A stretch of 64,000 nucleotides of DNA from assembly GCA_028290705.1 (NCBI GenBank), contig JAQGJH010000088.1:1-64000 (forward strand), in the 5' to 3' direction. The translations under genes were made by a program, and so were the position numbers. Below the pieces are notes generated by a model. That model did not search any database. It was given only the letters and a program-made list of their open reading frames with translations, and had not been told where the DNA came from. This document shows positions 2,336 through 59,345 of this stretch, one piece after another (the first letter of the stretch is position 1; each line of letters begins with the position of its first letter). Source of the DNA: Hyphomicrobiales bacterium (lineage in GTDB: Bacteria; Pseudomonadota; Alphaproteobacteria; Rhizobiales; Beijerinckiaceae).

Positions 2336-2475
2336 CTCAAACACCTACTGCTCGCAACAAAAACTCAAACGGGCGATGGTCGTCGATATCGCCGTGTCCC
2401 CACTATCCGGCGTCATGGTAAACGGACGCTTAAGCTATTGATCTGTCACATAATGATACAGGTATCGGAGATGCC

Positions 2476-48919: not shown

Positions 48920-50170
48920 TTACGAACGAAGGTTCACGAGAACTTCGATCAGGTCGGCGCCCGTCTGGAACACTTTGGAATTGGCGGTGTAGCCGCGCTG
49001 GGATTCGATCATGGTGGCGAGCTCGTTGGCGAGGTCGACGGTCGAATCTTCGAGGGTCGACGACACGATTTTGCCGAGACCGCCAGACTGCGCTGCTCCG
49101 ACCACGACGCCGCCGGAATCGGCGGATTCGGCATAGACGTTGCCGCCTCGCTGCTCGAGATTGTTCGGGCTGCGCACGTTTGCCAGCGCGATCTTGTAGG
49201 TCGGCGTGCGCGTTCCGTTCGCGTAGATCGAGAAGAGCGTGCCGTCTTCGGCAATTTCGACACGGTCGACGGCGCTCGGAGCATTGCCGTTGATCGCGGT
49301 ATCGATCACCGAATAGCTTGCGGCGAGTTGCGTCGTCTTGGAAAGGTCGAGCTCCAGGGTCGCGCCGTTCGGAACGGCGATGCTCAGCGGAGAGCCTGCC
49401 AGCATCTTCCCGTTGGCCGGGTCGAAATCCAGCGTCTGCGTCACGATCGGTCCGGCCGCGTAGGGGAACCCACCCGTGGCGCTCGCGCCCGCCTTGTCGA
49501 ACACGGACACTTCCCAGGTGTTGTCCGCGGTCTTGTTGAAATAGACGTCGAGCTTCACCGGCGCGCCGAGATTGTCGTAGGCGACGATGGAAGACTTGCC
49601 GACCGTTGCAGAGGTGGCGGAATTCGCAGACGGCAGATCGCCGGCCGCAGTGGCGGTGGCGGCCGACGGAAGATTGGCCGTAAAGCTGCCGCTCGTCGAC
49701 GCCTTGGCGGTGAGCGACAATTGCCCGATGGTGATGGCGGTCGTTCCGCCGATGCCGGCGTCACCAGTCGGCACTGAATCCCCGAGCGGGTATCCCATCA
49801 GCTTGAAGCCGGCGGTATTGATCAGAAATCCATCCTCGTCCGGGATGAAGCCGCCGGCACGCGTCAGAAACGAAGCGCCCGAAGGATCGTTGACGACGAA
49901 GAAGCCGTCGCCGTTGATGGCTAGATCGGTGACGTTCGTGGTGCCGCGCAGCGCGCCCTGCGAAGAGGCAGACTGACGGATATGCGCCGTGACGCCGCCC
50001 GAAGCATAGGAATGCGTGGCCTGCTGTCCCAGCACGGTCTCGAACTCGGTCGACTGTTGCTTGTAGCCCGTCGTGTTGACGTTCGCGATATTGTCCGAAA
50101 CGACGGAAAGGCGGCTGGCCTGCGCAGACATTCCGGAAGCGGCGGTGCGCATCGTCGCGAAGAAGCTCAT
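48920..50170 (-). CDS. flgE: Flagellar hook protein FlgE
   Basis: The 416-residue protein starts with FFATMRTAASGMSAQASRLSVVSDNIANVNTTGYKQQSTEFETVL and ends with LANELATMIESQRGYTANSKVFQTGADLIEVLVNLRS, the hook-protein end motifs. The central part includes GTTNVTDLAINGDGFFVV and the variable surface domain. It polymerises into the hook. It heads the flgE-flgK-flgL-flaF-flbT-flgD operon, 143 bases after ftcR. Confidence 0.97.
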   Translation of the reverse strand: MSFFATMRTAASGMSAQASRLSVVSDNIANVNTTGYKQQSTEFETVLGQQATHSYASGGVTAHIRQSASSQGALRGTTNVTDLAINGDGFFVVNDPSGASFLTRAGGFIPDEDGFLINTAGFKLMGYPLGDSVPTGDAGIGGTTAITIGQLSLTAKASTSGSFTANLPSAATATAAGDLPSANSATSATVGKSSIVAYDNLGAPVKLDVYFNKTADNTWEVSVFDKAGASATGGFPYAAGPIVTQTLDFDPANGKMLAGSPLSIAVPNGATLELDLSKTTQLAASYSVIDTAINGNAPSAVDRVEIAEDGTLFSIYANGTRTPTYKIALANVRSPNNLEQRGGNVYAESADSGGVVVGAAQSGGLGKIVSSTLEDSTVDLANELATMIESQRGYTANSKVFQTGADLIEVLVNLRS

Positions 50171-50313: not shown

Positions 50314-50982
50314 TCAGCAAGTCAGGCAGTAGCCGAGGTATCTCTTGGAATCGATCGGATCGTATCCGAGGCGCGCACGCAGCTTCTTGCGAAGTTTGCT
50401 CATATGGCTTTCCACGACCGCTTCCTCGACGTTTTCGTCGAAGATGCCGTAGACGGCATTGAAGATCTGCGCCTTGCTGACACGCTTGCCGCGGTGCTGC
50501 ACCAGATATTCCAGCATGCGACGCTCGCGGCGCGGAAGCTCGATGATCTCGCCGCTGATCTCGGGATCGCGTCCGTCGAAGAAGACGCGCATGTCGCCGA
50601 CCGTGGCGTAATCCTGCGTGACCTGCACACGACGACGAATGGCGTCGACGCGAGCCAGGATTTCGCGGGCATGAACCGGCTTGCGAACCACGTCGTCGAC
50701 GCCGCAGGCGAACAGTTCGAGCGTGTGCTCCAGAGAGGGAGCATCATTCATCGCAATGACCGGTGCGCGCGAACGCTGCCGAATGATTTTCGAGAACTGA
50801 TGACGATCGCGACAATCGCCGATCAGGAAGGCCTCGACGGCTTCGAGATCCTGCGGACCCGCGCTGTTCACCCAGTCGTGGAATTCCTCGGGGAAGAATG
50901 CCGTGAGAGAGACACCCTCGCGGCCAAAGGAGGTGGTGTAGCCCGACGCGACAATCTCGCGTTCATCGACGAAGACCAGCAT
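50314..50982 (-). CDS. ftcR: Flagellar transcriptional regulator FtcR (Rem-like)
   Basis: The 222-residue OmpR-type protein matches Brucella FtcR closely: [25 protein letters not shown] at the start, [11 protein letters not shown], then the winged-helix DNA-binding domain [71 protein letters not shown]. The receiver domain lacks the usual phosphorylatable Asp neighbourhood, as in Rem. It activates flagellar genes such as the hook operon. The ORF track start was trimmed to the conserved one. A CtrA-type box lies about 100 bases upstream. Confidence 0.95.
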
Positions 50983-51083
50983 GGTCTGCCTGTGCCTTTC
51001 AAGGAATCTGTTCGACGCTTTTGCCAGAATCAGCACTCGCAAAGCTTCAGCCTTTGCTTGACCACAACCATGCCCATTATTGG

Positions 51084-51098
51084 TTAATGAACGTTTAA
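51084..51098. promoter_or_regulatory. CtrA-type binding box upstream of ftcR
   Basis: The plus strand reads TTAATGAACGTTTAA, an exact TTAA-N7-TTAA with a following C, and the minus strand reads TTAA-N7-TTAAC as well. It is 102-116 bases upstream of the ftcR ATG and overlaps the stop codon of the transglycosylase gene. It matches the CtrA consensus of alphaproteobacteria; binding is an inference. Confidence 0.6.
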
Positions 51099-51691
51099 CC
51101 GGGCGCCTGACAGAAGGTTCTGGCGTTAGGAGTCCAGGCTCCAAGTCCAGCCGAAACCATGTTGCCAATAACCGCACAAACATATCGTTTCTGTGCAGAT
51201 GTATTATTTGGGCCAGCATGATAACGAGCCACAGCCATCGTCCAGCTGCCTTCGCGCTGCTTCAGCTCGATCAGGAACTTTGCGCCATAGTCGACATTCT
51301 TCGCCGGGTTGAACATCTCCGCTACGGAAGCGAATTTTTTCCCGTGGAAGTAGTGATTGATCTGCATGCAACCGATATCGATGAGCTTCGCGCCGCGCCC
51401 GCGGGCTAGTTCCACTTGACGCATGGCCTCCGTCATGCTGGGCGAGAAGACCGACTTGCCCTCGACGTTGATCGCGTGCGGATCGAGCTTACCGCGACGT
51501 CCCGTCTCGGTGAGACTCACGGCATAGAGAACATTGACCGGCACGCGGTGCTGCTGTGACGCGCGCAGCATCTCGCGCTCGCAGACGTTGGTGCTCGTCT
51601 GCGGCACGCGCGTCTGTGGTGTGGCCGACGCGCTACAGATAAATGCCAGAAGCCACGGAAGCGCGATCGCGAGGCGTGACGGTCTCATCAT
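51095..51691 (-). CDS. Lytic transglycosylase at the end of the motor/fliK operon
   Basis: The 198-residue protein has a signal peptide ([18 protein letters not shown]) and an SLT fold: [15 protein letters not shown] (catalytic Glu in the ETG motif), [14 protein letters not shown] (the GLMQI-like motif), [12 protein letters not shown]. It should cut periplasmic peptidoglycan to let the rod through; SltF of Rhodobacter and similar enzymes do this in alphaproteobacteria. Its start lies inside the 3' end of fliK (59-base overlap). A short FlgJ without hydrolase is encoded in the neighbouring operon. Confidence 0.88.
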
Positions 51692-53045
51692 ACTCGGACT
51701 TTCCTGAAGCTCTCTCGTGACCGCGTTGACCGCGCGAGCGATCCTCGGCATGGGACGATGCGTCCTGTTGCTGGGCCGACGCGGAATTGTTGGATGTGCC
51801 GTTTTGACTGGACTGGCCGGATTGCTGCTGGGCGTTCTGACCGTTCTGCGATAATCCGCCTGCATCCGCTGCCGACGCGGCGCGGATGGTCAAACCGTCG
51901 AGCTGGCAATTCTCGCCTTGAAGGCTTCGATGCAGCACGTCCTGGCTGCGCTTGATCATGTCGAGCGTCTCGGGCTTCGCCACTTCGATCTGGATGGTCA
52001 GTGCGCCGCCCGAGAGTTTCATCTTCACATTGACGACGCCGAGGGCTTCCGGCTCGAGCTGGATGTCCATGGTTTTGGACACGTCATGCGTGGCGGGCTT
52101 GTGCATCTCGGCGGCGACGGGCGCGGTCGCGGCCTGAACCTCGCGTACGACCTGACCGGCAATCTGTCGCATCGGTTCGTTGACGACAGGATAGTGAGTC
52201 GTCGTGTTGACGTTGCGCACCGCGACGCTGCGCGTCTCTTCGACCGCCTCGTCGTCGCCGGTCTTCGAAAGCATCTGTCGGGCGAAGCCATCGAGCGGCT
52301 TGCCGCCTTCCTCCGCCATGGCAGGGTCCGTCGTCCCAGTCGCGAGCGCCGCATTGCCGGCCGCCTGGCCATCGTCCGGCATGGCGACAGGTGTTTGAGT
52401 CGCGGCGGTCCCCTGGATCGACATGCCCTTTGTGGCTGACCCGTCTCGACCTTGCGGCGGCTCGCCCTTGGCCGAAGGCGCGTCCTTGCGGACGCCACTT
52501 TGTCCGGACTGTCCGGGAGCAGCCAACAAAGCCGCAACGGCGGCCTCGGCCGCCTGCGACGGCAATGCGGTCGTGTCCACCGGCACGTCGCTGGGCGGCG
52601 TGACGTCCACCGACGGCAGACCAAGTTCGCCGCCAGCTTCAAGACCGGGCATTTCAGATTTTGCCGCAGCAACCCCGACACTTTCTGCCGAAGTCTCGAC
52701 GTTCCGCGGCGGCAGCACGATCTTGCCGGTCTCACCTGACAGGACCTGCGCCAGAAGCGCCTGCCAGCCAGCCTCGGCTGCAGGCAAAGAGGCGCCGCCA
52801 TCCGCCGCCACGTTGGCCGCATCGATGGGCGCGTCGAGCTTGAAGCCGGGATTGAGTTGCGACGGATGCCGCAAAACCGTCGGCTCTTGCGGCCCGCTCT
52901 TGGAGGGAATCGCCGGGGCGGCCTGCTCTTCGAGAACGCTGCCGAAAGCCTCAGCCGCGGAGCCGTCGGACTGGCCGGCATCGGCGCGCTGCTGCGGAAC
53001 GTTGCGCGGCGGCGGCGCCGTCACGACTGCGAGCTTGGGTCCCAT
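51633..53045 (-). CDS. fliK: Flagellar hook-length control protein FliK
   Basis: The 470-residue protein has a low-complexity Pro/Ala/Gln-rich N-terminal region and a conserved C-terminal domain: MDIQLEPEALGVVNVKMKLSGGALTIQIEVAKPETLDMIKRSQDVLHRSLQGENCQLDGLTI, the FliK hook-length domain (MotD in older rhizobial naming). The tail is Gln/Ser-rich and basic. It is exported and switches substrate specificity when the hook is complete. It starts at TGATG overlap with motC; the track's upstream extension was trimmed. Confidence 0.92.
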   Translation of the reverse strand: MGPKLAVVTAPPPRNVPQQRADAGQSDGSAAEAFGSVLEEQAAPAIPSKSGPQEPTVLRHPSQLNPGFKLDAPIDAANVAADGGASLPAAEAGWQALLAQVLSGETGKIVLPPRNVETSAESVGVAAAKSEMPGLEAGGELGLPSVDVTPPSDVPVDTTALPSQAAEAAVAALLAAPGQSGQSGVRKDAPSAKGEPPQGRDGSATKGMSIQGTAATQTPVAMPDDGQAAGNAALATGTTDPAMAEEGGKPLDGFARQMLSKTGDDEAVEETRSVAVRNVNTTTHYPVVNEPMRQIAGQVVREVQAATAPVAAEMHKPATHDVSKTMDIQLEPEALGVVNVKMKLSGGALTIQIEVAKPETLDMIKRSQDVLHRSLQGENCQLDGLTIRAASAADAGGLSQNGQNAQQQSGQSSQNGTSNNSASAQQQDASSHAEDRSRGQRGHERASGKSEYDETVTPRDRASVASGIYL

Positions 53046-58000: not shown

Positions 58001-58921
58001 TCAGCCCTTGAAGAGCGACAAGATCTGCTGGCTGTTCTGGTTGGCGATGGACAAGGACTGCACGCCAAGCTGCTGTTGTACCTGAAGCGCTTGAAGTCGC
58101 GTCGATTCTTTGCTCATGTCGGCATCGATCAACTGTCCGATGCCCTTGGTGACGGCATCCATCAGGTTGGACACGAAGTCCATCTGCATGCTGATGCGAT
58201 TCTTCACCGCGCCGAGATCGCTCGCCGAGGTCGTTACGTCGGTGAGGGCCGCATCCACGATGTTGATGTAATCGTCGAGCGTGGCCAGATCGGCGGCCGA
58301 ATCCGTGATGGTGGAAATGTCCAGCGTGGCCACGCTGGCCGTCGTGGCGTTGACCGTGCGCGACTTGTCCAGAACGCCGAGCTGGCCGTTCGAGTCGTAG
58401 AGCGCCGTCTGGGCGATGTCGACGTCGATCGTTCCGATGACGATCGTGCCGGCCGAGCGCGTGAAGGATGAGACGACGCTCTTGGTGGCATTGTAGCCCG
58501 CGGCCGACGAGTCGACCGAAAGCCAGTTTTCACCCGAAAACACCGAGGAGTCGGCGACACTCTTCAGCTGCTCCTGCAGCTGCGTGATTTCCGCCTGTAC
58601 CTTGCCGCGATCGAGGCCAGGCTCGCGCGCCGCGACCAGTTTCGCCTTGATCTGGCTGACGAGATCCGAGGTCGTGTTCATGGCTGCGGCCGCGACGTCG
58701 ACCGTCGCGGCGCCCATCCCGAGCGCGTCCTTGACGGTCGAGATCGCGGAATTGTCGGATTTCATCGTGGTGGCAATGGCCCAGTAGGCAGCATTGTCCG
58801 ACGCGTTCGCCACCCGCATGCCGGTCGAGATCCGGTCCTGCGTCGTCTGCATGGCCTTGTTCGTGGCGTTCAGGTTTTGCAGTGCCGTGATAGCGGACGC
58901 ATTGGTGAGAAGACTGGTCAT
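58001..58921 (-). CDS. fliC: Flagellin
   Basis: The 306-residue protein is a short flagellin. N-terminal D0/D1: SLLTNASAITALQNLNATNKAMQTTQDRISTGMRVANASDNAAYWAIATTMKSDNSAIS. C-terminal: NRISMQMDFVSNLMDAVTKGIGQLIDADMSKESTRLQALQVQQQLGVQSLSIANQNSQQILSLF. The variable D2/D3 region is short. It is the only flagellin gene in the window and has its own terminator. Regulation by FlbT/FlaF and FtcR is expected from the family. AGGGA precedes the ATG. Secreted to the filament. Confidence 0.97.
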   Translation of the reverse strand: MTSLLTNASAITALQNLNATNKAMQTTQDRISTGMRVANASDNAAYWAIATTMKSDNSAISTVKDALGMGAATVDVAAAAMNTTSDLVSQIKAKLVAAREPGLDRGKVQAEITQLQEQLKSVADSSVFSGENWLSVDSSAAGYNATKSVVSSFTRSAGTIVIGTIDVDIAQTALYDSNGQLGVLDKSRTVNATTASVATLDISTITDSAADLATLDDYINIVDAALTDVTTSASDLGAVKNRISMQMDFVSNLMDAVTKGIGQLIDADMSKESTRLQALQVQQQLGVQSLSIANQNSQQILSLFKG

Positions 58922-59345
58922 GCGCGTGTCCCTACTGTCGTCAGATCTACGACCTGCCGGATTGCTGTCGGCTCGATGGACGCGGCGTCATGCCCTCGAA
59001 GCGCGAATCGGCGTGGTTCGATCCATCATCATGGTTAATAGTCTGATTTCAGGCTTAAGACTTCGTTACTCCAGCTCCCGTTTCAGCTGGATTTGCCATT
59101 TTTTGTAGGGGACTAGCAGTTGCTTGACCTCTCCTAACGGCAACCTTGGCTGACCTAAGGTAAGCTCGTCGCCACTCCGGGGCGTCGTCGTGGCCTGGCA
59201 AACGCCAAAAGCCGCGCGACACGGCGGTGTCGACGGCGGCGTTGGGTCCGGGAGCAATCGCTGGAAATGCCGCCACGCCGCATGCCGCCTCCCGACAGAT
59301 CGGGAGACGAAAGACTGGCGCGGACGGCTCGTGGACGGAGCGGCT
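58922..59345. promoter_or_regulatory. Flagellin upstream region
   Basis: About 420 bases without a supported gene. Near 59030-59110 it is AT-richer, with the inverted repeats CCAGCT..AGCTGG (around 59071-59090) and GTCT..AGAC (around 59041-59061), where flagellin control elements are expected. A hairpin CTCCCGA/TCGGGAG at 59289-59306 lies 40 bases after the fliP stop and may act as a weak terminator. I could not identify a definite promoter. Confidence 0.4.

Follow-up and report, generated by a model that had tools for sequence, protein, structure and literature searches.

The promoter region of ftcR, which encodes an orphan regulator of flagellar genes, carries an inverted repeat that is most probably a binding site for the cell-cycle response regulator CtrA, as judged by its sequence and its recurrence upstream of ftcR orthologues. 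The repeat, GGTTAATGAACGTTTAACC (51082-51100), contains the sole TTAA-N7-TTAA found by a pattern search of the window, i.e. the entire 64 kb stretch of DNA analysed here. No match arose in 100 dinucleotide-preserving shuffles of the window, so that none is expected by chance. The original prediction had described an exact, near-palindromic CtrA-type box about 100 bases before the ftcR start, lying across the stop codon of the preceding transglycosylase gene and lacking a second exact copy nearby. All of these features were recovered: a sequence check confirmed TTAATGAACGTTTAAC at 51084-51099, the arms GGTTAA and TTAACC form the repeat, about 100 nt separate the box from the ATG of ftcR at 50982, and one half-site holds the stop codon (Table 1). 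Owing to the two arms, TTAA-N7-TTAAC, the CtrA full-site sequence, is readable on either strand, and it is exact on both (51083-51099). The sequence quoted in the original prediction is likewise exact; however, it is the plus-strand copy, which faces the transglycosylase gene, whereas the minus-strand copy, TTAAACGTTCATTAACCAA, faces ftcR and fits the consensus better. With a position weight matrix (PWM) of the orthologue consensus, the ftcR-facing copy scored 21.9 and the plus-strand copy 12.7. A promoter scan of positions 50900-51300 recognized no sigma-70-type promoter around the box.

Table 1 Features at and around the CtrA-type box upstream of ftcR (window coordinates).
Feature	Position	Strand	Evidence or remark
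CtrA-type box, inverted repeat GGTTAA-N7-TTAACC	51082..51100	.	Pattern search and orthologue footprint; minus-strand reading TTAAACGTTCATTAACC
ftcR-distal (upstream) TTAA half-site	51095..51098	-	Holds the transglycosylase TAA stop codon (51095-51097)
ftcR-proximal half-site TTAACCAA	51080..51087	-	7 of 8 positions match the orthologue consensus TTAACCAT
GANTC, possible CcrM methylation site	51027..51031	.	Between box and ftcR start
Second GANTC	51004..51008	.	Between box and ftcR start
ftcR, orphan OmpR-type flagellar gene regulator (FtcR/Rem family), 222 aa	50314..50982	-	Trans_reg_C, 57 bits
Lytic transglycosylase (SLT domain), gene upstream of ftcR	51095..51865	-	Pfam; same upstream neighbour in many relatives
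flgE, hook protein, first gene after ftcR	48920..50170	-

FtcR was assigned to the FtcR/Rem family by its OmpR-type C-terminal DNA-binding domain, a weakly matching receiver domain that stays below the Pfam cut-off, and the location of its gene in a hook/basal-body cluster (Pfam, conserved context). The genes around ftcR and the transglycosylase gene include fliK, motB, fliF, flagellin, flgE, flgK, flgL, flhA and flgH. The true start of the transglycosylase probably lies inside the open reading frame given in Table 1. Five contigs of the draft genome (C59, C67, C107, C114 and C145) carry flagellin genes, five in all, which are 71-100% identical to the flagellin gene at 58001-58921. The ftcR orthologues were found at 58-97% identity. 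One genome (G142) has two ftcR copies (L089 and L090) on a single contig, separated by about 30 kb; their equal match score, at 56% identity to the query, suggests a duplicated segment.

Conservation of the box was assessed in the upstream regions of 146 ftcR orthologues, 131 of them non-redundant, from 14 unevenly sampled families of the order, with expected counts taken from first-order Markov simulations. Of the 131 non-redundant orthologues, 36 have an exact box in the 350 nt that precede the gene, compared with about 1.3 expected. Within the same family the count is 26 of 72 (simulated mean 0.55, maximum 3), and in the other families it is 10 of 59 (simulated mean 0.7, maximum 4). The conservation that the original prediction proposed to check thus holds, at the 7-nt spacer, for many orthologues but not for most, the exact box being absent in about 70% of them and from several families altogether. 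A leave-one-out matrix scan added degenerate boxes, such that 38 of the 72 same-family regions scored above all 30 shuffles, with some other families again having none. Across the 131 orthologues, the spacer profile peaks sharply at 7 nt (n = 36), with seven cases at spacer 6, four at spacer 8 and 0-6 at the others. More distal segments (-700 to -350) contain an exact box in 3/131 cases, and no exact box occurs in the coding segments of the ftcR orthologues.

The gene-facing consensus of the box-aligned orthologues reads TTAA-N7-TTAACCAT. It matches both TTAA-N7-TTAAC, the CtrA consensus that ChIP-seq yielded for Hyphomonas (PMC7200025), and the TTAACCAT variant, an extended CtrA form known from Caulobacter (PMC6180460). 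The five closest sequences vary in the spacer and keep the arms, with one base changed in L019, and the box lies at offsets of -116, -118, -119 and -123 in close relatives. A coding origin of the footprint, through a longer FtcR frame that is open to 51219, was rejected because the box offsets do not follow a constant frame and the coding segments are free of boxes. In four orthologues (L025, L046, L024 and L056), a conserved GTTGACAAT-like sequence directly follows the box upstream of ftcR and is possibly a -35 element beside it.

The genomic background of the motif, proposed as a check in the original prediction, was determined in the draft genome (3.02 Mb, 148 contigs, 74% complete). TTAA-N7-TTAAC occurs at 13 distinct sites (17 strand-wise matches, four sites being two-sided), compared with five matches of the backwards control pattern, and nearly all sites lie between genes or near gene starts. 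Their neighbours, which are plausible CtrA targets, comprise minC, a ChpT-encoding frame, a gene with a match to FtsK, an AmiC-type amidase gene and exopolysaccharide genes. The presence of the motif before minC, chpT and ftsK in the genome that carries the ftcR box, its presence before minC in the family and its recurrence among ftcR orthologues support the CtrA-type reading; the wider interpretation of the original prediction, in which CtrA binding would tie the hook operon to the cell cycle, is supported in part.

CtrA itself is encoded (NF045991, 423 bits at a cut-off of 350), as are SciP, a CcrM-like RAMA-domain protein and a part of ChpT that scored 188.7 bits across 114 aa at the locus edge (cut-off 240). 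The genes ctrA, chpT and sciP lie together on one 17 kb contig (C78, L098), where the frame that encodes ChpT has an exact CtrA box before it. A search for GcrA found none in this 74% complete draft assembly.

We propose that a CckA-ChpT relay would supply phosphorylated CtrA, which would most likely bind the two TTAA half-sites and activate ftcR, and that FtcR would in turn activate the hook and basal-body genes. The cell cycle would then gate flagellar synthesis via one entry point, and not via CtrA boxes at each operon. Our data show the box with its conservation, spacing and orientation, the genes for CtrA and its partners, and the lack of other exact boxes nearby; that CtrA occupies the site, that it activates ftcR and does not repress it, and that it does so in time with the cell cycle is what we infer. 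With respect to a single entry point, we counted boxes in 12 ftcR regions, namely the window and segments of 11-40 kb from 11 relatives picked because they carry the box. No exact box other than that at ftcR occurs in 11 of these 12 regions, a count that refers to exact boxes and leaves room for degenerate CtrA sites elsewhere; the remaining region (G114) has an additional exact box about 16 kb from the ftcR box. With a single exact box per ftcR region, FtcR would be the main route by which CtrA reaches the flagellar cluster.

Two other candidate sites in the window were rejected. The best near-match to the box, TTAAGCGTCCGTTTACCAT (2415-2433, minus strand), lies some 80 nt ahead of a DUF2336 gene (1127-2335) and is unconserved there, with a box upstream of DUF2336 in 0/30 relatives. 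The CtrA half-site form TTAACCAT also occurs at 59031-59038 on the minus strand, some 110 nt ahead of the flagellin gene at 58001-58921. It was dismissed as a second CtrA input as judged from 30 flagellin upstream regions, of which one has a full box and three have TTAACCAT. Both sets of upstream regions also served as negative controls for the ftcR box.

The two GANTC sites between the box and ftcR (Table 1) belong to a wider pattern. In the 150 nt that precede ftcR orthologues, this sequence is more frequent than simulated (127 sites compared with 71.5), and in the ftcR coding sequence it is strongly depleted (160 compared with 533). These counts hint at a CcrM-linked methylation input at ftcR, which we regard as a lead only.

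CtrA might also recognize the box and there mainly repress ftcR, or use it as an anti-silencing site against the zinc-finger silencer MucR. We consider such a role rather unlikely, yet it has some foundation. The genome encodes two MucR homologues, and a review on Brucella proposes CtrA and VjbR as MucR counter-silencers at ftcR (PMC12548446). Moreover, repressing CtrA sites in Caulobacter overlap -10 elements (PMC6180460). In S. meliloti, however, CtrA is mainly an activator (PMC4433202), which argues against repression.

A site for FtcR itself is far less probable. FtcR, like CtrA, has a Trans_reg_C domain, and as an OmpR-type winged-helix regulator it would likely recognize a pair of half-sites spaced by about one helical turn; a box in the promoter region of its own gene could therefore be autoregulatory. 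However, the two-sided motif GTTAA-N7-TTAAC is in excess not only in 68 genomes with ftcR (359 compared with 94 for the control) but also in 81 family genomes without it (345 compared with 156). The same extended motif is found upstream of minC in 17/30 family genomes (this genome and 16 of 29 relatives), several of which lack ftcR, at about 16-59 nt from the minC start, and CtrA of B. abortus binds the minC promoter (PMC2877005). The motif excess in genomes without ftcR and the shared extended motif at minC thus favour CtrA over FtcR, and we judged FtcR autoregulation unlikely on these grounds. In addition, flgE, fliF and flagellin, the expected targets of FtcR, have no exact box.

The least credible reading is that the box arose as a chance match in AT-rich sequence or as a side effect of the stop codon of the transglycosylase gene: one half-site does hold the stop codon and A and T are commoner in intergenic DNA, but the shuffles gave no matches, the orthologue enrichment is strong and specific to spacer 7, and most boxes of the orthologues do not coincide with a stop codon. 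The stop-codon explanation was rejected since L020 and L021 retain the distal half-site with the transglycosylase stop codon further downstream, and a chance or by-product origin is contradicted at the family level.

The idea that CtrA acts on ftcR is not new, as comparable wiring was suggested earlier for related bacteria. Our analysis adds how broadly the box is conserved, controls for specificity and the finding of one exact box per cluster. The precedents conflict, and the CtrA route to the flagellar genes is disputed in this order. In S. meliloti, a CtrA motif was noted in the rem promoter and Rem was proposed as an intermediate between CtrA and the flagellar genes (Rotter 2006, cited in PMC4433202). 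However, rem showed no CtrA ChIP-seq signal and its expression was unchanged on CtrA depletion, whereas flagellin and mcp genes are direct CtrA targets (PMC4433202). For Brucella, in contrast, a 2025 review names CtrA as a possible direct regulator of ftcR that may counter MucR silencing (PMC12548446, Table 1, citing the CtrA ChIP data of Francis 2017). A footprint conserved in another family offers cultivable species for a direct test of the link between CtrA and FtcR, and it suggests that the circuit is simple, with a single point of entry.

The system described here resembles that of S. meliloti in the Rem/FtcR gene family, the upstream CtrA motif and the proposed role of the regulator between CtrA and the flagellar genes. 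It differs in that the exact box is widely conserved, here in another family, and in that the flagellin upstream regions are without a box. With Brucella it shares CtrA as a possible regulator of ftcR, which in Brucella also employs VjbR and MucR. The extended motif at minC here recalls the minC site of Brucella abortus (PMC2877005); minC is a cell-division gene, and its box lies nearer to the start. In Caulobacter, Hyphomonas and Rhodobacter, the same TTAA-N7-TTAA(C) recognition sequence is found near flagellar genes (PMC7200025, PMC6180460). There, CtrA sites directly precede several structural flagellar operons, and in Hyphomonas most motility operons have one (PMC7200025), whereas the only exact box of the cluster described here lies at the regulator gene. 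We tentatively suggest, at somewhat less than even confidence, that CtrA controls the flagellar cluster via one ftcR box in Beijerinckiaceae and some related families, and that this link was gained or lost repeatedly across the order. Such a wiring would be unlike that of Caulobacter, with its many direct sites, and unlike that of S. meliloti, where CtrA was not found to occupy rem.
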